From contig NZ_CP137891.1 of NCBI RefSeq assembly GCF_033547075.1, positions 3,038,001 through 3,102,000 of the forward strand: a stretch of 64,000 nt of DNA, in the 5' to 3' direction. Of this stretch, positions 2,959 through 57,904 are shown piece by piece; the first letter of the stretch is position 1; each line of letters starts with the position of its first letter. The notes beneath the pieces are model-generated. The model had not been told where the DNA came from. It saw nothing but the letters and a program-made list of their open reading frames with translations, and ran no database searches. Both the position numbers and the translations under genes were made by a program. This DNA comes from Flavobacterium ardleyense (GTDB lineage: Bacteria; Bacteroidota; Bacteroidia; Flavobacteriales; Flavobacteriaceae).

Positions 2959-4356
2959 TTAAGAATTAAGTATAGGTTGAATTGTGTTTCTTAAGATCAA
3001 TTTTTTGGTCAGTTTTGTAAAGCGAATATACAAAAATATTGCCGCCGCTGTTAGTCCAACTAGAAGTCCTATCCAAACTCCTACGGCTCCCAAATCTGTA
3101 TAAATTCCCAAGTAAAACGAAATCGGAAATCCTAAAACCCAGTAAGCAACAAAGGTCATATACATCGGAACTTTCACGTCTTGCAATCCGCGCAAAGCAC
3201 CCAAAACTACCACTTGAATTCCGTCCGAGATTTGGAAAATCGCCGCAATGATCAATAATTTGGAAGCAATTCCCACCACTTCGGCGTTGGTCAGTCCTTC
3301 CTGTAAGTCGTTTGGATTTAGGAATAAAATTGGTAATACTTTGTGGAATGCGATAAAAAGTCCCGCGAACAGAAATTCAATCATTATTGCGAGTAAAAAT
3401 ATTGATCGAGAAACAATTAGCAGTTTTTTATAATCACCAAGTCCCTTCTGATTGCTCACGCGAATCATCGCGGTTACACTCAATCCCATCGCAAACATAA
3501 ATGTCAATGATGCCAAGCTTAAAGCCACCTGATTTGCCGCCTGACTACTTGCGCCAATTGTTCCACAGAGCCAAACCGATGCAGTAAACAATGCCACTTC
3601 AAATAGCATTTGCATTGCCGAAGGCGCTCCAATACTGGCGATTTTTCTGAAAAGTTCCTTACTAATAGTTGATATTTTGAAGCCAGTAAAATATTCTTTG
3701 AGTTTTGGATTTTTGGAAAGAATCACGTGCATAAAAATTACCATTAAGATTCGCGAGATTACCGTACCAACCGCGGCACCGAGAATTCCCATTTTTGGAA
3801 AAATCCAAATTCCATAAATTAATAAGTAGTTCAAGATTACGTGAATCACATTCGCCATAATCATCGCATACATCGAATATTTTGTTAGCGATAATCCATC
3901 GGCAAATTGTTTATATCCTTGATAAATCACAAGAGGAATCAACGAAAATCCTACCAAATCTAGATATGGCATCGCCATAGCAGTCACTTCTTCGGGCTGA
4001 TTTAGTAATCCCATCAGAGGTTTTGCAAGAAGCATAATTGCAAAAAGTCCAAAACCTAGCGCGATACAAAGCATCATTCCGTGGTGGAAAGCAGCTCTTA
4101 CTTTACTGGTGTTTTTGGCAGCATCCGCTTCGGCAATTATCGGAGTAATCGCAGTGGAAAAACCAATCCCTACAGACATCGCTATAAATACCATACTATT
4201 TCCGAGCGAGACCGCGGCAAGTTCATTACTTCCTAGGCTTCCCACCATTATATTATCCACTATCCCAATAAGTGTATGCCCAAGCATTCCTAATATTATA
4301 GGATACGCAAGTTTAAGATTATAGGAGAACTCTTTTGTGTATGTTTTAAAATTCAA
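2959..4356 (-). CDS. MATE family efflux transporter (NorM-like)
   Basis: A 465-residue inner-membrane protein with about 12 transmembrane helices, the size expected for MATE cation-coupled drug exporters. Family features seen include the N-terminal YPIILGMLGHTLIGIVDNIM, where helix 1 carries the diagnostic DNIMVG segment, and the equivalent LFEVALFTASVW in the second half. It is probably the first gene of a two-gene unit with the acidic protein at 2724-2951. A -7 box lies just upstream at 4376-4383. It is divergent from the outer-membrane barrel gene at 4590. Transported compounds are unknown. Confidence 0.93.
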   Translation of the reverse strand: MNFKTYTKEFSYNLKLAYPIILGMLGHTLIGIVDNIMVGSLGSNELAAVSLGNSMVFIAMSVGIGFSTAITPIIAEADAAKNTSKVRAAFHHGMMLCIALGFGLFAIMLLAKPLMGLLNQPEEVTAMAMPYLDLVGFSLIPLVIYQGYKQFADGLSLTKYSMYAMIMANVIHVILNYLLIYGIWIFPKMGILGAAVGTVISRILMVIFMHVILSKNPKLKEYFTGFKISTISKELFRKIASIGAPSAMQMLFEVALFTASVWLCGTIGASSQAANQVALSLASLTFMFAMGLSVTAMIRVSNQKGLGDYKKLLIVSRSIFLLAIMIEFLFAGLFIAFHKVLPILFLNPNDLQEGLTNAEVVGIASKLLIIAAIFQISDGIQVVVLGALRGLQDVKVPMYMTFVAYWVLGFPISFYLGIYTDLGAVGVWIGLLVGLTAAAIFLYIRFTKLTKKLILRNTIQPILNS

Positions 4357-6384: not shown

Positions 6385-7221
6385 ATGTCAAAATTCACCA
6401 TCGAGCTTCTACTCCACATCATCGGCATCGGCTCCGCATCAGGACTGATTTTCAAGAATGACACACTTTACATCATCTCCGATAATTCTAATGTACTTTT
6501 CGAATATTCCATCAAGAACATCAGTCTCACCCAAATTCCGCTGACCACAAATCCACCACAGCAGAATATGCCAAAACCACAAAAACCAGATTTCGAAGCC
6601 ATCACATTGCACAACGACACACTATACGTTTTCGGCTCCGGATCGACACCCAACAGAAATAAGTTAGTTACCGTTCCAGAAAAAGACAAAAGTAATTTGA
6701 AAGAAATTGATCTTTCAGATCTCTATTCTGTAATGCAGAGTTTCTCCCAAATAGATGCTGCCGAATTCAATATCGAAGGTGTTGTCCACGACGGCGAATC
6801 TTGGTATTTCTTTCAACGCGGCAATGGTCCATCGTCGCGCAACGGAATCTTCACCGTCAACGGCAATAATTTCACCGATGATTTCTCCATTTTATACAAC
6901 GAAGTAAAACTTCCAAAAATCAATGGTGTCCGAAGCACTTTCACCGATGCAGTTTTTACCAACAACACGCTCTACTTCCTCGCCACCGCCGAAGATTCAA
7001 AATCCGTTTACCACGACGGTGAAGTCAAAGGCAGCCTCATTGGCACATTCGATCTTGCCAAAATGAAAGTCAAAAAAACCAAAAAAATCAGCGACACCCA
7101 AAAGTTTGAAGGATTGACCGTTTTTAAAAACGACGGCAAAGAGATTGAGTTTTTATTGTGCGAGGACAATGATAATGACAATTTGAAAAGCGGGATTTAT
7201 ACGTTGAGGATGGGGAAATAG
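6385..7221 (+). CDS. DUF6929 family protein (predicted beta-propeller-like)
   Basis: A 278-residue protein without signal peptide or membrane segment. It consists of repeated short beta-type segments (GSASGLIFKNDTLYIISDNS, DFEAITLHNDTLYVFGSGS, NIEGVVHDGESWYFFQRGN, KFEGLTVFKNDGKEIEFLL), each pairing a hydrophobic strand with an acidic or glycine turn. This is the pattern of the DUF6929 proteins of Bacteroidota and suggests a propeller fold. No catalytic motif is visible. It stands alone between a hairpin repeat and the module array, so context gives no function. The family name is from memory. Confidence 0.75.
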   Translation: MSKFTIELLLHIIGIGSASGLIFKNDTLYIISDNSNVLFEYSIKNISLTQIPLTTNPPQQNMPKPQKPDFEAITLHNDTLYVFGSGSTPNRNKLVTVPEKDKSNLKEIDLSDLYSVMQSFSQIDAAEFNIEGVVHDGESWYFFQRGNGPSSRNGIFTVNGNNFTDDFSILYNEVKLPKINGVRSTFTDAVFTNNTLYFLATAEDSKSVYHDGEVKGSLIGTFDLAKMKVKKTKKISDTQKFEGLTVFKNDGKEIEFLLCEDNDNDNLKSGIYTLRMGK

Positions 7222-7382
7222 AAAATAATGTAAATATTTTCAGAGATTTAGGCTGGACTATATTTTTAAAAATTAATTTCGTCTAAATGAAAAGTCAGCA
7301 ATAAAATACTGTTCCGTCAGGTTTGACTTTATTATAATACAGAATTTCATTGCCGATTTAAAAGGACGATAATAATACATCA

Positions 7383-7647
7383 GAGCCGTAGGCTCGACTT
7401 TATTGTAGCGCAGGATTTTAATCCTGCGTAAATGGAACGATGCGTTGCACGAAAAGAGCCATAGGCTCGGCTTTATGATTTACGCGTAAATTCATCGCAG
7501 CAATAAACTGTTATTTTTAATATCAATTGTTGCCAAACATCCACATTAAAAATTTATAAAATCGTTCCTCTGGAACTTTTCAACTACATCATAATAATGG
7601 ACAACGGATTAAAATCCGTTGCTACAATAAGGCCATCCCTACGGGAT
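7383..7647 (+). repeat. BIME-like module 1
   Basis: Order of elements: mini-hairpin GAGCC-GTA-GGCTC (7383-7395); GTAG (7405-7408) followed by the hairpin CGCAGGAT-TTTA-ATCCTGCG (7409-7428); mini-hairpin GAGCC-ATA-GGCTC (7456-7468); a linker of about 95 bp; GTTCC-TCT-GGAAC (7564-7576); hairpin CAACGGAT-TAAA-ATCCGTTG followed by CTAC (7602-7625); and ATCCC-TAC-GGGAT (7635-7647). The right half is an inverted relative of the left half. Confidence 0.85.
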
Positions 7648-7798
7648 TGAGAAACAGCGCCATTATAACGAAATCATATAATTTGTTAATAGTAACCGTC
7701 GGATCAATTCTGAAATCCTACCACTTAATCAAAACTTTAGCGCAGCAAAACTTATAATGCAACATATAATTCGCGCAATAAGGCAAAATATAATCTCA

Positions 7799-8063
7799 GA
7801 GCCTTAGGCTCGACTTTATTGTAGCGCAGGATTTTAATCCTGCGTAAAAGGAACGGAACGTAGCACAAAAAAGAGCCGTAGGCTCGGCTTTATGATTTAC
7901 GCATAAATTCATCGCAGCAATAAAATATTATTTTTAAAATCAATTGTTGCCAAACAGGCACATTGAAAATTTATAAAGTCGTTCCTCTGGAACTTTCAAC
8001 TTCATCATAATAATGGACAACGGATTGAAATCCGTTGCTACAATAAAGCCATCCCTACGGGAT
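7799..8063 (+). repeat. BIME-like module 2
   Basis: Same order and length as module 1. The first mini-hairpin loop is TTA instead of GTA. The GTAG-hairpin is at 7821-7844, the inverted hairpin plus CTAC at 8018-8041, and the terminal ATCCC-TAC-GGGAT at 8051-8063. Confidence 0.85.
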
Positions 8064-8203
8064 TATTTGCACCGAATAAAATAATGAGATAAAATTGTAA
8101 TGTAGTTGAATAAATATCTCTCTAATAATCTTAAATCCGAATAAGACAATTGTATTTTATCAAATTACTACACCACAATAAAAGAAACTAAAGTGAAATA
8201 TCA

Positions 8204-9114
8204 GAGCCGTAGGCTCGACTTTATTGTAGCGCAGGATTTCAATCCTGCGTAATAGAGTTATTGTTTAGCACAAAAGAGCCGTAGGCTCGGCTTTATGATG
8301 AGCAAGTAATCTAAGATTAAAAACTTTTTTTCTTAATAGCCGAAGAAAAAATAAAATCCTCGTGTTATTTTTCCCCTCACAATTTACAATCCTAAATCAA
8401 ATCATCAAACAAATAACGTTCATCAAATTCAATCTCAAATTTTTCCAAAAGCTCTAAATATTCCTCTCTAAAAGTTTTTTTCGCGTGATGTTTTTCTTGA
8501 TTTTGTATATAAGAATATACATTTTGAATTTGCGACTGACTATAAGAAAAAGCACCATAACCTTCCTGCCACTCAAAACGATGCTCTAAAATTTTTTGAT
8601 CATTTATGAATTTGGAGGATTTGGCTTTCACCGTTTTCATCAATTCAGACATTGAGACAGTTGGTTTTAAAGAAAGAAAGCAATGAACGTGATCTTCAAC
8701 ACCATTTACAATAAGACTCTGACATCCCGTATTGTTAATAAATTTTGCAATAACAGAAAATACTTCGCTTCGCCATTCCTTGTTCAAGACTGCCTTCCGG
8801 TATTTCACAGCAAAAATAATTTGTACATAGACTTTATGATATGTATTTGCCATGATAATTTATTTGATTTGAAATTTCTCTGAAAGAAAATAAATTTATT
8901 AAATTCATAAAATATTATAAATACCTAATTAACAGATAAATATAAGGTATTTTATGTTTCTTCGGTATAATATTTATTCTAAAATTATCACGAGTAAAAT
9001 ATGTGTAGATTCTCTACCTGCAATTTATAAAATCGTTCCTCCGGAACTTCGGACAACGCACTTCTATCTGCAACGGATTAAACCGTTGCTACAATAAAGC
9101 CATCCCTACGGGTT
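8204..9114. mobile_element. Module 3: HUH transposase gene between the two halves of a BIME-like module
   Basis: The left half of the module (GAGCC-GTA-GGCTC, GTAG plus CGCAGGAT hairpin at 8226-8249, second GAGCC mini-hairpin to 8288) and the right half (GTTCC-TCC-GGAAC at 9035-9047, CAACGG hairpin plus CTAC at 9071-9092, ATCCC-TAC-GGG to about 9114) enclose the transposase gene at 8392-8853. In the other modules a 95-bp linker takes this place. It looks like the complete element, with the 265-bp modules as internally deleted forms. Confidence 0.7.
8392..8853 (-). CDS. IS200/IS605-type Y1 HUH transposase (RAYT-like)
   Basis: A 153-residue protein with the single-tyrosine HUH transposase fold that cuts and joins single-stranded hairpin DNA. 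The metal-binding HxH is in EDHVHCF (His55, His57), and the candidate nucleophile is the tyrosine in YSYIQNQE (Tyr115). The N-terminal strand TYHKVYVQIIFAVKYRK matches the IS200 family opening. Length is normal and the frame is intact, so it may be functional. No tnpB/iscB partner is present. It lies between the two halves of a hairpin module whose relatives flank it on both sides, the arrangement of REP-associated transposases and of IS200 with MITE-like derivatives. Confidence 0.88.
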   Translation of the reverse strand: MANTYHKVYVQIIFAVKYRKAVLNKEWRSEVFSVIAKFINNTGCQSLIVNGVEDHVHCFLSLKPTVSMSELMKTVKAKSSKFINDQKILEHRFEWQEGYGAFSYSQSQIQNVYSYIQNQEKHHAKKTFREEYLELLEKFEIEFDERYLFDDLI

Positions 9115-9261
9115 TAAAACGCATTGGAACGTGAATAAAATTATTTACATATCGTAATAGTCAACTAATCAATTCTAAAATCTCGAGAAATCTTAAAAGC
9201 TTTAGCGACGAACATTTATATTGCATGACAATGTTCGACCAGAGAGAGAAAATATAATTCA

Positions 9262-9526
9262 GAGCCGTAGGCTCGGCTTTATTGTAGCGCAGGATTTTAA
9301 TCCTGCGTAAAAGGAACGATGCGTTGCACGAAAAGAGCCGTAGACTCGGCTTTATGATTTACGCGTAAATTCATCTCAGCAACAAACTATTATTTTTAAA
9401 ATCAATTGCTGCCAAACATGTACATTGAAAATTTATAAAATCGTTCCTCTGGAACTTTTCAACTACATCATAATAATGTAAAACGGATTGAAATCCGTTG
9501 CTACAATAAAGCCATCCCTACGGGAT
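9262..9526 (+). repeat. BIME-like module 4
   Basis: The same 265-bp layout. GTAG-hairpin at 9284-9307, second mini-hairpin with one mismatch (GAGCC-GTA-GACTC, 9335-9347), inverted hairpin AAACGGAT-TGAA-ATCCGTTG plus CTAC at 9481-9504, terminal ATCCC-TAC-GGGAT at 9514-9526. Confidence 0.85.
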
Positions 9527-9672
9527 TAAAACGCATTGGAACGTTAATAAAATATATACATATCGGAATAGTCATCTAATCAATTCTGGAATTCAGAGAA
9601 ATCATTAAAATTTATGCGACGATTATTTATAGTGCATGACAACATTCGCCCAGAAATAGAAAATATAATTCA

Positions 9673-9937
9673 GAGCCGTAGGCTCGACTTTATTGTAGCG
9701 CAGGATTTTAATCCTGCGTAAAAGGAACGATGCATTGCACGAAAAGAGCCGTAGGCTCGGCTTTATGATTTACGCGTAAATTCATCGCAGCAATAAAATA
9801 TTATTTTTAAAATCAATTGTTGCCAAACATGCACATTGAAAATTTATAAAGTCGTTCCTATGGAACTTATCAGCTACACTATCTCAATATACGACGGATT
9901 AAAATCCGTTGCTACAATAAAGCCATCCCTACGGGAT
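9673..9937 (+). repeat. BIME-like module 5
   Basis: The same 265-bp layout. GTAG-hairpin at 9695-9718, GTTCC-TAT-GGAAC at 9854-9866, inverted hairpin with CGACGGAT (one G-T wobble) at 9892-9911, terminal ATCCC-TAC-GGGAT at 9925-9937. Confidence 0.85.
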
Positions 9938-10089: not shown

Positions 10090-11949
10090 ATGAATATTTC
10101 AAAAATCCTTCTCATTTTAACTTTACTCATTATGAGTAGCTGCAATCAAGATAAAAAAGAATCTAATTCTCAAGACAAATTTGCAGAGGAACCACATTCT
10201 TTTGCACAGCCAAACAAGGCTTATATAAAACATCTGAAACTAGATATTAAAGTAGATTTTGATACGCAAATTATCAGCGGAACCGCTACCTACGATATTG
10301 AGAACAATGATAGTGACGAAATTATTTTAGATTCGAAATACTTGGATATCGTATCGGTAACGGCAGATGGAAAAGATACTGAATTTTCATTAGGAAAGTT
10401 TGACCAGCAATTAGGTCAAGCGCTAAACATCAAAATTCAAAAAGGAACAAAACAAATTGCGGTTACCTATAATACAACCAAAGACACCGAGGCAGTGCAA
10501 TGGCTCAATCCACAGCAAACTGCCGATAAGAAATATCCGTTTCTTTTTACACAAGGGCAAGCGATCTTGACTAGATCGTGGATTCCAATTCAGGATAGTC
10601 CTCAAATTAAAATTACTTATGAAGCCAACGTTCAAGTTCCTAAACACTTGATGGCAGTAATGAGTGCCGAAAATCCTAAAACGAAAACTACGGATGGATT
10701 GTATCATTTTGCAATGAAACAATCGATTCCTGCCTACTTGATTGCTTTGGCAGTTGGCGATATTGAATATAAAGCAATCAGTAATCGAACTGGAGTTTAT
10801 GCCGAGAAGTCAATGTTGGACAAAGTGCACAACGAGTTTTCGGATATGGAGAAGATGGTTTCGGCAGCCGAAAAGCTGTACGGTCCTTACGCCTGGGAAC
10901 AATTTGATGTATTGGTGTTACCTCCAAGTTTCCCATTTGGTGGAATGGAAAATCCACGATTGACATTTGCAACTCCAACCGTAATTGCTGGTGATAAAAG
11001 CTTAACCTCATTAGTTGCGCACGAACTAGCGCATTCTTGGTCTGGAAACCTAGTGACAAATGCCACGTGGAATGACTTTTGGCTGAACGAAGGTTTTACG
11101 GTCTATTTTGAAATGCGAATTATGGAAGCTGTTTACGGAAAAGAGCGCGGAGATATGCTGGCGTTAATTAGCAGACAAGATCTAAATGACGAATTAGAAA
11201 ATTTAGAAGACACTCCAGATGCTACGAAACTTAAGCTAGACTTAAAAGGACATAATCCAGATGATAGTATGAATAGCATCGCTTATGATAAAGGTTATTT
11301 ATTCTTACGAACTCTCGAAGAAAAAGTAGGGCGAGAAAAGTTTGATGCTTTTATCAAAACATATTTTAAAGTACACGAATTTTCGACAATGACAACTGAG
11401 AAATTTGTGGATTATTTAAATAAGAACCTTTTAGAAAAAAACAATATCACGTTCAATACTGATGAATGGATTTACAAATCTGGAATTCCCGCAAATCAGG
11501 CAATCATCACTTCGGATAAATTTAAAAATGTAGAAAGCAAACTGGCGCAATTCATTTCCACGGGCAATTTTGATAAAGAAGTAACTAAGGATTGGACACC
11601 ACAGGAATGGGTACATTTTGTTCGGAATTTTCCAAAAACTATGACCGCTGACCAAATGCTAGTTTTGGATAAGGAGTTAAATTTGACAAATTCTACAAAT
11701 TCCTATATTCAGATGGTTTGGTATGAACAGGCGTTAAATCAAAACTACCACGGAAATAATGTTGACAAAAAGATTGAAGAATTTCTAACTCAGGTTGGTC
11801 GTCGTTGGTATGTGGAAACACTTTTTAAAGCTTTCAAAAGAAATAATAGAATGGATGATGCTCTAAAGGTTTACGAAAAAGCACGTCCTAATTATCATTC
11901 GGTAACTGTAAAAACGATTGATGATCTATTGGGTTATAAAGCGAAATAA
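10090..11949 (+). CDS. M1 family metallopeptidase (aminopeptidase N/LTA4H-like), lipoprotein
   Basis: A zinc aminopeptidase anchored by lipid. The N-terminus is a lipoprotein signal (hydrophobic run then MSSC). After a beta-rich N-domain come the substrate-binding GGMEN motif and the zinc site HELAH at residues 311-315 with NEGF carrying Glu334, exactly the HExxH-x18-E spacing of M1 peptidases. The C-terminal third is helical, as in leukotriene A4 hydrolase-type enzymes; total length is 619. It probably trims peptides at the cell envelope. A weak -7-like TACCTTCG lies at 10059-10066. It is monocistronic, lying between the module array and a hairpin repeat. Confidence 0.94.
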   Translation: MNISKILLILTLLIMSSCNQDKKESNSQDKFAEEPHSFAQPNKAYIKHLKLDIKVDFDTQIISGTATYDIENNDSDEIILDSKYLDIVSVTADGKDTEFSLGKFDQQLGQALNIKIQKGTKQIAVTYNTTKDTEAVQWLNPQQTADKKYPFLFTQGQAILTRSWIPIQDSPQIKITYEANVQVPKHLMAVMSAENPKTKTTDGLYHFAMKQSIPAYLIALAVGDIEYKAISNRTGVYAEKSMLDKVHNEFSDMEKMVSAAEKLYGPYAWEQFDVLVLPPSFPFGGMENPRLTFATPTVIAGDKSLTSLVAHELAHSWSGNLVTNATWNDFWLNEGFTVYFEMRIMEAVYGKERGDMLALISRQDLNDELENLEDTPDATKLKLDLKGHNPDDSMNSIAYDKGYLFLRTLEEKVGREKFDAFIKTYFKVHEFSTMTTEKFVDYLNKNLLEKNNITFNTDEWIYKSGIPANQAIITSDKFKNVESKLAQFISTGNFDKEVTKDWTPQEWVHFVRNFPKTMTADQMLVLDKELNLTNSTNSYIQMVWYEQALNQNYHGNNVDKKIEEFLTQVGRRWYVETLFKAFKRNNRMDDALKVYEKARPNYHSVTVKTIDDLLGYKAK

Positions 11950-11960
11950 GTATTGAAAAC

Positions 11961-12110
11961 GTTAGCCCGCGTGAGGGATGGTCGTGGAAATCCTTTGTTG
12001 TGGCTTTGCGAAGCAAAAGCTACGACAAAGATTGGGAACAGACAGCCCGACCTCCCCAAAAATATCATTTCAACTTTTGCACAATTTTTCTTTGGGGAGG
12101 GCACGCCCAA
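11961..12110 (+). repeat. Dispersed hairpin element, family B copy 1
   Basis: A conserved frame (GCGTGAGGGATGG, then GTGGAAATCC, then CAGACAGCCCG, and GGGCACGCCCAA at the end) encloses two variable hairpins: CTTTGTTGTGGCTTT against AAAGCTACGACAAAG, and CTCCCC-AAA against TTTGGGGAG. A second copy with different stems lies at 57623-57784. Confidence 0.75.
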
Positions 12111-14060: not shown

Positions 14061-14503
14061 AAACCGTAAACTGTCAACCGTTAACTAACAAAAAAGCAGC
14101 CGCAATAAAAATTCACAACTGCTATTTGATTTAATTTTCAATTTTAGTCCCACGTCCAAACTGTAAACCGTGAACTGCAATCCGTCAACTAAGAAAAAAG
14201 CAGCCGCAACAAAAAGTCACAACTGCTAATAAATCTAAATTTCAATTTTAGACTCACGACCAAACTGTAAACCGTTAACTGTAAACCGTTAACTTACAAA
14301 AAAGCAGCTGCAACAAAAAGTCACAACTGCTACTAAATATAATTTTCAATATTAGAGTCACGCCCAAACTGTAAACCGTAAACTGCAAACCGTTAACTAA
14401 CAAAAAAGCAGCTGCAACAAAAAGTCACAACTGCTACTAAATACAATTTTCAATTTTAGACTCACGTCCAAACTGTAAACCGTAAACTGTAAACCGTAAA
14501 CTT
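14061..14503. repeat. Tandem array, 104-bp period
   Basis: The anchor AAACCG recurs at 14061, 14165, 14269, 14373 and 14477, and GCAGC recurs at 14096, 14200, 14304 and 14408: a constant 104-bp step, four full copies and a partial. Each copy has an ACTGTAAACCGTTAACTG-like palindromic run and an AGCAG/CTGCT hairpin which, on the reverse strand, ends in a T-run. An inverted partial copy lies at about 13882-13912. The gap 13837-14511 holds no gene. Confidence 0.88.
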
Positions 14504-45635: not shown

Positions 45636-45898
45636 AATTGGATTCTCAATCAAATAATATCTGCAAATAGAATGCAAAATTTTGTTCGACCCTGATGGGG
45701 TTGTGAAAAATCGGTCTATTGATATTAAACGAAACGTGATATTGCATTTTATCTTCAAAATTCAAGAATGATCTTAGAGCAAAAACTAAGTATTGCTAGA
45801 AAATTAAATATCTGATGACTTATTCTCCAATTTTATTTCCACAATGCTGATTTATAAAAACAATCTCTCCTTCTCTCCTCGACCTTTCATACGGCGAA
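45636..45898. other. Intergenic stretch without recognised gene
   Basis: AT-rich sequence after the epimerase gene. I see no convincing terminator or gene; the family A hairpin element begins at 45899. Confidence 0.5.
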
Positions 45899-46048
45899 GC
45901 TAGCCCCGATAGAAACGAAAATCCCTGCTTAGGGCATTTGCCTTTTGGTAGCAGCGGCGGGAAAGAGCGACCAAAGGAAGCTCCTTTGCCGCCGACTGCT
46001 ACGGCAAATGCCCAAGCAGGATTGAAGAGAATAGCGGGATTTAGCTCC
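45899..46048 (+). repeat. Dispersed hairpin element, family A copy 3
   Basis: Begins GCTAGCCCCGAT and ends ATAGCGGGATTTAGCTCC. The arms are GGGCATTTGCC/GGCAAATGCCC, GTAGCAG/CTGCTAC and CGGCGG/CCGCCG, around the apex GAGCGACCAAAGGAAGCTC. Almost the whole 150 bases can fold on itself. It ends 12 bases before the stop of the MFS gene. Confidence 0.82.
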
Positions 46049-57622: not shown

Positions 57623-57784
57623 GGTTTTGCGCAAGGGATGGGAGTGGCATCCTTTGCTGCCTTCCGAAAATTTTATTGCTTGAAAATAATAATTTCTGGC
57701 AGCAAAGATACAGCGGACAGCCCGGCCCGAGCCACCTTTTGGCTCAATGCTAAGATGTACGTTGTGGCTCGGGATGCGCCCAAA
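57623..57784 (+). repeat. Dispersed hairpin element, family B copy 2
   Basis: Frame GCGCAAGGGATGG, GTGGCATCC, ACAGCGGACAGCCCG, GGGATGCGCCCAA. The first arms are TTTGCTGCC/GGCAGCAAA, the second CCCGAGCCAC/GTGGCTCGGG. The arms differ wholly from copy 1 at 11961-12110 but pair as well. Confidence 0.75.
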
Positions 57785-57820: not shown

Positions 57821-57904
57821 GGAGCTTTTTCCCGCTGTCCGTTATAGCTTTGCCGCCCAAAAGAGGGCCGGCAAAGGCTGCCACTGCCATCAGGGCTAGG
57901 GCAC
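57821..57904 (-). repeat. Short family A-like hairpin element
   Basis: On the reverse strand it runs from GTGCCCTAGCCCTGATGGCA to GCGGGAAAAAGCTCC, with stem TTTGCCGGCCC/GGGCGGCAAA. It keeps the family A end sequences but has a single short arm and no AGCGACC apex. It lies 36 bases beyond the family B copy; together they fill most of the gap 57590-58024. Confidence 0.65.

Follow-up and report, generated by a model that had tools for sequence, protein, structure and literature searches.

Hairpin units around a subclass 1.2 transposase gene of Flavobacterium ardleyense and a probable REPtron-like system of Bacteroidota

The stretch of DNA analysed here (the window: 64,000 nucleotides of Flavobacterium ardleyense, contig NZ_CP137891.1, positions 3,038,001 to 3,102,000) contains a gene for a Y1 HUH transposase which lies in an array of DNA modules made up of inverted hairpin units. 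The evidence suggests that gene and hairpins probably constitute a REPtron-like system of Bacteroidota, built on an IS200-type transposase of subclass 1.2. Many Bacteroidota keep a non-mobile relative of the transposases together with small hairpins dispersed between genes, which the enzyme probably copies or moves. Partnerships of this kind, between repetitive extragenic palindromes (REPs) and REP-associated tyrosine transposases (RAYTs, TnpAREP), have so far been known mainly from another branch of the enzyme family.

The module array and its elementary unit

Five modules are located between the open reading frames (ORFs) at 6385-7221 and 10090-11949. The original prediction of five modules, four of them exactly 265 bp long and one split by an intact HUH transposase gene, is borne out by the coordinates and by an ORF of 153 amino acids. 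Except for the gene-bearing one, the modules repeat in tandem every 405-416 bp, so that their fixed length is partly trivial. The features are as follows.

7383-7647, gene-less module, 265 bp, inverted unit pair
7799-8063, gene-less module, 265 bp
8204-9114, gene-bearing module, inverted unit pair bracketing the transposase gene, 911 bp
9262-9526, gene-less module, 265 bp
9673-9937, gene-less module, 265 bp
8392-8853, minus strand, Y1 HUH transposase gene with the signature of TnpAY1 subclass 1.2 (153 amino acids; DHVH, WQ, YIQNQEKHH)
7383-7428, plus strand, elementary unit of 46 nt, composed of an A hairpin (7383-7395), a 9-nt linker, GTAG (7405-7408) and a B hairpin (7409-7428); match to the Rfam model RF01687 (Acido-Lenti-1) on the other strand at 7382-7428
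7799-7844, plus strand, elementary unit A-GTAG-B, pattern and Rfam match
8204-8249, plus strand, elementary unit A-GTAG-B, 3' of the gene and on the strand opposite to it, pattern and Rfam match
9262-9307, plus strand, elementary unit A-GTAG-B, pattern and Rfam match
9673-9718, plus strand, elementary unit A-GTAG-B, pattern and Rfam match
7602-7647, minus strand, inverted unit, B stem CAACGGAT
8018-8063, minus strand, inverted unit, B stem CAACGGAT
9071-9114, minus strand, inverted unit upstream of the gene and on its strand, with a shortened B hairpin (22 nt including GTAG)
9481-9526, minus strand, inverted unit, B stem with one mismatch at its foot
9892-9937, minus strand, inverted unit, B stem with one mismatch
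7456-7468, plus strand, second A-type hairpin (A2), separated from B by 27 nt, repeat family D4; equivalents start at 7873, 8276, 9335 and 9746
7564-7576, minus strand, inverted A2 hairpin (plus-strand GTTCC-TCT-GGAAC), repeat family D7; equivalents start at 7981, 9035, 9443 and 9854

A module of the window thus reads A1-B-A2 ... A2'-B'-A1'. The basic unit, as read from copies in relatives, has 46-47 nt and consists of hairpin A (5-bp stem and 3-nt loop, often C-GTA-G), a linker of 9-10 nt, GTAR (GTAG or GTAA) and hairpin B (8-bp stem with a TTYA loop); the linker measures about 10 nt in relatives and 9 nt in the window, and another A-type hairpin is often found 21-27 nt downstream. The predicted inverted pairs of GTAG-hairpin units hold without exception for the forward units, all five of which read GTAG-CGCAGGAT-TTYA-ATCCTGCG with 8/8 pairs, but only in part for the five reverse ones: GTAG-CAACGGAT forms a perfect hairpin in two, 7/8 pairs are present in another two (9481-9504 and 9892-9915), and the one beside the gene is shortened (9071-9092). 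The arrangement exceeds chance: a single extra occurrence of GTAR-N8-TTYA with at least six of eight pairs was found in the window, at 14274 (7/8). Folding of four module stretches as single-stranded DNA gave z values of -3.1 to -5.2.

The 265-bp module proved to be not the unit but a composite, namely an inverted pair of the 46-47-nt units. As a mobile unit it was rejected, for the genome G206 (same genus, one contig of 5.5 Mb) has single units as well as inverted pairs about 80 bp apart. A terminator or a cis-regulator acting on the gene only was likewise rejected, since copies are dispersed and no T run follows the B hairpins of the window.

Hairpins beside the gene in related genomes

The related set comprised the best 80 of 160 relatives, all of them, judging from their titles, in Bacteroidota genomes. 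In a first scan, the density of perfect hairpins inside 1.5 kb of the gene exceeded that at 2 kb or more by a factor of about 15, with GTAG or GTAA at the foot of 94 of 348 near hairpin sides versus none of 34 far ones. GTAR followed by a perfect stem of at least 7 bp was present at 44 of the 80 loci (102 near and 5 far occurrences), while the control guides gave 3 (reversed) and 17 (reverse complement) near occurrences. With the geometry set to GTAR, 8 bp, TTYA and at most one mismatch, 54 loci had a match within 1 kb, at a density of 0.933/kb versus 0.0079/kb far from the gene.

The association is most evident when no guide is asked for. Hairpins with an 8-bp stem, at most one mismatch and a TTYA loop occur at 77 of the 80 loci, 296 of them within 500 bp of the gene (3.87/kb), compared with 6 in 380.6 kb of far flanks at 2 kb or more (0.0158/kb), a near/far ratio of about 240. 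Such a hairpin is missing within 500 bp at L100, L144 and L145; at two of these three loci the downstream flank is just 126 bp long. The link between protein and hairpins, originally drawn from position, is hence supported by these 77 loci and by the co-occurrence within the genus described below. This guide-free scan, together with the further loci given below, left out L165, L209, L210, L213, L217, L223, L236 and L238, which had no central ORF call; L226, the window's own gene, was kept out of its group.

A second set of loci from the clade of this transposase (clade A; L154-L165) had hairpins in 9 of 11 cases. Within the same 500 bp, none was found at 17 other high-scoring loci of subclass 1.2 (L166-L182) and none at three IS200 loci, while TTYA hairpins with other guides are present at 10 of 19 more distant loci of the subclass. 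The trait is therefore wider than clade A and absent from part of subclass 1.2; that all genes of the subclass have hairpins was rejected on the 17 negative loci. Among the distant loci, L225, L218, L215, L222, L231 and L237 carry TTYA hairpins with feet such as GCGA, CAAG, CCAG and TGAG, with as many as 13 of them inside 500 bp at L225. The Dyadobacter loci L114, L116 and L133 have arrays 5' of the gene with no GTAR foot and a different unit design, in which GGTCAGGA or GGCCAGGA hairpins occur together with CCCGGGAT or ACCGGGAT hairpins on the opposite strand.

The orientation of the units is also largely fixed. The nearest upstream unit within 500 bp lies on the gene's strand at 40 of the 44 loci having one (median distance 91.5 bp), and the nearest downstream unit on the opposite strand at 31 of 40 (median 67.5 bp), so that, as seen in the window, an inverted pair mostly encloses the gene. 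An A-type hairpin precedes 109 of 134 units from the 80 loci within 60 nt, compared with 3.4 for shuffled flanks, and the commonest position of its 3' end (94 counts) is exactly 10 nt upstream of GTAR. On the downstream side, an A-type hairpin occurs within 60 nt of 64 of these 134 units.

Covariation was analysed at GTAR-N8-TTYA sites, for which pairing was not required. In detail, 177 distinct sequences from 59 loci were used near the gene, together with 97 far sites. Near the gene the B pairs are formed in 83.8% of cells (mean 59.5% and maximum 62.2% after shuffling of partners) and the A pairs in 73.7% (mean 44.0%, maximum 47.5%); with one sequence per locus the values are 84.5% for B and 72.5% for A. 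As the shuffling ignores kinship, this covariation supports rather than proves the structure, and the far sites, where about a third of A and of B cells are paired (B about 31%), are the better control.

Dispersal of the units, co-occurrence with the gene and its neighbours

A genome-wide search for copies far from position 8392 was successful. The window genome contains 34 matches to GTARCNNNGGNYTTNARNCCNNNG, none to the reversed pattern, which form clusters along the chromosome; of 25 matches to module DNA, 21 fall into four clusters (at about 375, 1377, 3045-3048 and 3106 kb). In G206 there are likewise 26 pattern matches over the chromosome and 0 controls. Twenty-one of these 26 are true units, of which one falls under an ORF of at least 100 amino acids; of 1300 random positions drawn from the same loci, 978 do so. 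The corresponding figure for the window genome is 5 of 31.

In a sample of the phylum (392 genomes, with at most nine candidate genes scored per genome), 69 genomes had a pattern match and 13 a protein profile match of at least 230 bits, with two such gene matches in G266. Seven of the 13 clade-A genomes had pattern matches (G000 33, G206 26, G245 16, G382 6, G203 5, G320 3 and G305 2). The window's genus is represented by 26 genomes in this sample: the five with clade A have 33, 26, 16, 6 and 3 matches and the other 21 have at most one (p = 1.2e-4). A second draw of 61 genomes of the genus was made with a looser pattern and with every candidate scored, clade A being recognised at 255 bits or more (next match 221). 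Here the nine genomes with clade A have 3, 7, 9, 10, 25, 33, 38, 60 and 101 matches, and the 52 without it 0-8 (mean 2.6; p = 6.5e-6), where both p values ignore kinship and the two draws share five genomes. Each of the nine genomes has one copy of the clade-A gene, as has the window genome.

The stems themselves were compared for the distant matches of two genomes (29 of the 33 matches of G406 and 23 of the 26 of G206). In G406, the stems found on either side of its own gene recur in 15 of 24 distant matches, whereas stems from five other genomes recur in none of the 24. The own-gene stem of G206 is seen in 8 of 21, but this stem is common to several genomes. In addition, one G206 unit is polymorphic for presence and absence. 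In the orthologous intergenic region it is present in G206, G440 and G406 and absent from G397, G222, G441, G431, G442 and G395; clade A occurs in all three genomes with the unit and, of the six without it, in G431 only. This comparison, based on the ten best fetched loci with L279 left out as not anchorable, concerns one site, whose flanks are too AT-rich for boundaries, at which gain and loss are not separable and the G406 copy is degenerate.

In some genera the neighbours of the gene are conserved. Ten loci of Flavobacterium and its family have at least two flanking genes in common, which occupy corresponding places in the pairs formed with L074 and are mostly 73-94% identical. In the Chryseobacterium group, six loci (from Chryseobacterium, Cloacibacterium, Cruoricaptor and one metagenome-assembled genome of Flavobacteriales) likewise have downstream genes in common, and smaller groups exist. 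At 15 loci (L089, L093, L094, L108, L118-L121, L123, L126, L127, L128, L135, L144 and L147) the flanking genes held in common belong to one family of large paralogues, those at L123 resembling histidine kinases when inspected by eye.

Several observations weigh against a gene-and-hairpin system, in addition to the limits given above for the p values and for the single orthologous site. The neighbours of the window's gene match at none of the 80 related loci, and broad synteny of the group of 15 loci was rejected, since it is not collinear and the large paralogues stand at differing places in the pairs inspected. As to the hairpin, it is not confined to the clade, as its occurrence at the distant loci shows, and clade A is itself partly non-GTAR, the same hairpin there having another foot, such as ATAA or ATAG, and AAAG or CAAA in the Chryseobacterium group. 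As to co-occurrence, six of the 13 clade-A genomes of the phylum sample have zero matches to the narrow pattern, seven genomes have at least three matches without clade A, and reversed-pattern controls of the looser pattern amount to about two per genome in both groups of the second draw. Finally, G104 has eight hairpin pattern matches and no Y1_Tnp match in an assembly rated 100% complete; these repeats may outlive the gene or may belong to another system.

The transposase, its presumed mechanism and competing explanations

Judged by its sequence features, the protein is a TnpAY1 of subclass 1.2 on the IS200 side and not a typical RAYT. It passes the NCBIfam IS200 model with 78.3 bits (cut-off 55) and stays far below the cut-off of the RAYT model (26.1 versus 80 bits). 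Its tyrosine motif YIQNQEKHH corresponds to Y---Q--HH without the terminal NP that ends the class 2 motif in the table of PMC6006769, and membership in RAYT/TnpAREP (class 2) was rejected on score and motif. DH[VI]H and Y---Q--HH are present at all 80 related loci, H55, H57 and Y115 of the catalytic site as well as WQ are invariant in 30 of 30 proteins, and the closest solved folds are the TnpA of ISDra2, IS608 and IS200. The protein tree comprised 86 rows, 39 of them of clade A (L210, L213 and L223, with ORFs called later, included). In the best trees, three class 2 rows are separated from every class 1 row; in the approximately unbiased test, made on 43 of the 86 rows, a joint group of clade A and class 2 was not rejected (p-AU 0.207). 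The window genome has six Y1_Tnp genes, three with Y---Q--HH and one of these of clade A. The other two, at L036 (387 kb) and L038 (2137 kb), have no TTYA hairpin within 500 bp.

Of the RAYT/REP relationship originally proposed, the REPtron-like layout stands, whereas the reading of the protein as a RAYT is not supported. The same prediction had named ordinary IS200 with unrelated ends as the contrary outcome: the protein does lie on the IS200 side, but its hairpins are specific.

In the description of Quentin et al. 2018 (PMC6006769), subclass 1.2 is characterised by DH[IV]H, WQ, Y---Q--HH, about 150 amino acids, occurrence in Bacteroidetes and low copy number, all in agreement with the protein studied here. 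Its table gives REPs as 'no' and, generally, no typical IS200 terminal structures. In contrast, clade A and several other rows of subclass 1.2 carry hairpins of one design. The assignment nevertheless follows from the protein features, as the published absence of REPs is a description and not a defining trait. Among the matches listed in a literature search on REPs, RAYTs, Bacteroidetes, Flavobacterium and Acido-Lenti-1, which subscription papers mostly lie outside, no report of hairpin repeats for this subclass was found.

Like the REPtron (TnpAREP/RAYT class 2 with REPs and bacterial interspersed mosaic elements), the system described here has a low-copy Y1 HUH protein, inverted pairs of GTAG-tagged hairpins and copies between genes; moreover, the part of PMC8266576 on Marinomonas gives TTTA as the REP loop, the loop also seen here, and assigns the GTAG guide a role in the choice of the cleavage site. 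It differs in the subclass 1.2 protein from the IS200 side, in the extra A hairpin at a near-fixed spacing of 9-10 nt, in GTAR and, by clade, other guides, and in modest copy numbers (3-101 pattern matches in the nine gene-bearing genomes). In the same paper RAYT/REP appears as the domesticated transposase whose palindromes are dispersed, and contact with GTAG as what distinguishes TnpAREP from single-strand transposases. If an IS200-side subclass uses GTAR hairpins as well, this contrast weakens, and a second system would be available for asking how repeats spread and why hosts keep the enzyme.

By analogy with IS608 and TnpAREP, the following mechanism can be proposed. The subclass 1.2 transposase, of which each genome has one clade-A copy and which the host lineage probably retains, lies between two inverted units of 46-47 nt. 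It would most likely bind the B hairpin in single-stranded DNA, with GTAR as the guide for where the tyrosine cuts and rejoins, as in IS608 TnpA and TnpAREP. By transposition or copying through the protein, units and inverted pairs would spread to intergenic sites while the gene itself stays put. The 265-bp modules are gene-less inverted unit pairs multiplied locally into a tandem array. The hairpins are a candidate substrate for part of subclass 1.2, and the rules predicted for guide and loop lend themselves to in vitro tests; the shared TTTA loop and GTAG guide of the Marinomonas RAYT make such a test easy.

An ordinary IS200-type insertion sequence, with the hairpins as its ends and the 265-bp modules as deletion derivatives resembling miniature inverted-repeat transposable elements, is unlikely, though the least unlikely of the alternatives. 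The nearest folds, the IS200 cut-off passed by the protein and the two ends common to gene-bearing and gene-less modules would all fit it. The ends of IS200/IS605 elements, however, carry both hairpins on one strand. Here the hairpins mostly bracket the gene in inverted orientation and disperse separately from it, single units of about 50 bp occur without a second end, the neighbours are conserved in several genera, and no multicopy element with defined ends, as known for IS608 and ISDra2, was seen. The single gene copy in each of nine clade-A genomes lowers the probability of an insertion sequence, although such an element can be single-copy.

That the units are structured regulatory RNAs of the Acido-Lenti-1 family rather than DNA substrates is improbable, even if the matches to RF01687 are in its favour. 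Six of the seven cluster loci of the window genome were examined (L048 was left out), and five units of two other arrays reached 39.3-45.6 bits (gathering score 37) on the strand opposite GTAG; the window's five forward units match over the full length just under this score (28.3-36.5 bits, E 5e-6 to 9e-4). Against an RNA speak the occurrence in both orientations and in tandem arrays, the bracketing of a single-strand DNA transposase, the presence/absence at an orthologous site and the layout of guide and hairpin typical of HUH substrates. In 15 other clade-A loci no match was obtained (13 at gathering level and 13 at E 0.01), and the idea that Acido-Lenti-1 covers the whole hairpin family was rejected on this result.

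The likeness extends over the whole architecture: an 8-bp stem with a loop of 4 nt, CTA, a linker, and a 5-bp stem with a loop of 3 nt. The family is classed as a probable structured RNA found in Acidobacteria and Lentisphaerae; the 2010 listing has it as a probable RNA that is not cis-regulatory (Weinberg et al. 2010, PMC2864571), and a statement in a 2026 paper has its function as still little known (PMC13298647). Because of the identical architecture a shared nature is plausible, and Acido-Lenti-1 may, judging from this resemblance, consist of such DNA repeats, which is a concrete and falsifiable proposal for what the family is. Going further than the REPtron-like system itself, one might tentatively see here a second REP/RAYT-type partnership, independently evolved from the IS200 side and Bacteroidota-wide, with the guide varying by clade and with Acido-Lenti-1 as its DNA hairpin substrate and not an RNA; in this extended form we regard the proposal as possible but rather doubtful.

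That the transposase inserts into, or sits by chance among, repeats of another system is very improbable given the hairpins at 77 of 80 loci, the co-occurrence within the genus, the stem matching in G406 and the largely fixed unit orientation, despite the hairpins in genomes without a clade-A gene and the report of REPs as targets of some insertion sequences in PMC1525189.

Two further arrays of the window genome, L046 (2743-2746 kb) and L047 (1596-1598.5 kb), consist of GTAG-CCCAGGGT hairpins and match Acido-Lenti-1 at gathering level. None of the six Y1_Tnp genes is nearby; from the end of the L047 array it is about 700 bp to a 16S rRNA gene. Besides, the 64-kb window contains four Flavo-1 RNAs (RF01705), at 11960-12056, 45898-46045, 57624-57731 (plus strand) and 57824-57901 (minus strand), and further Flavo-1 RNAs are located in other cluster loci of this genome (L042 and L045).

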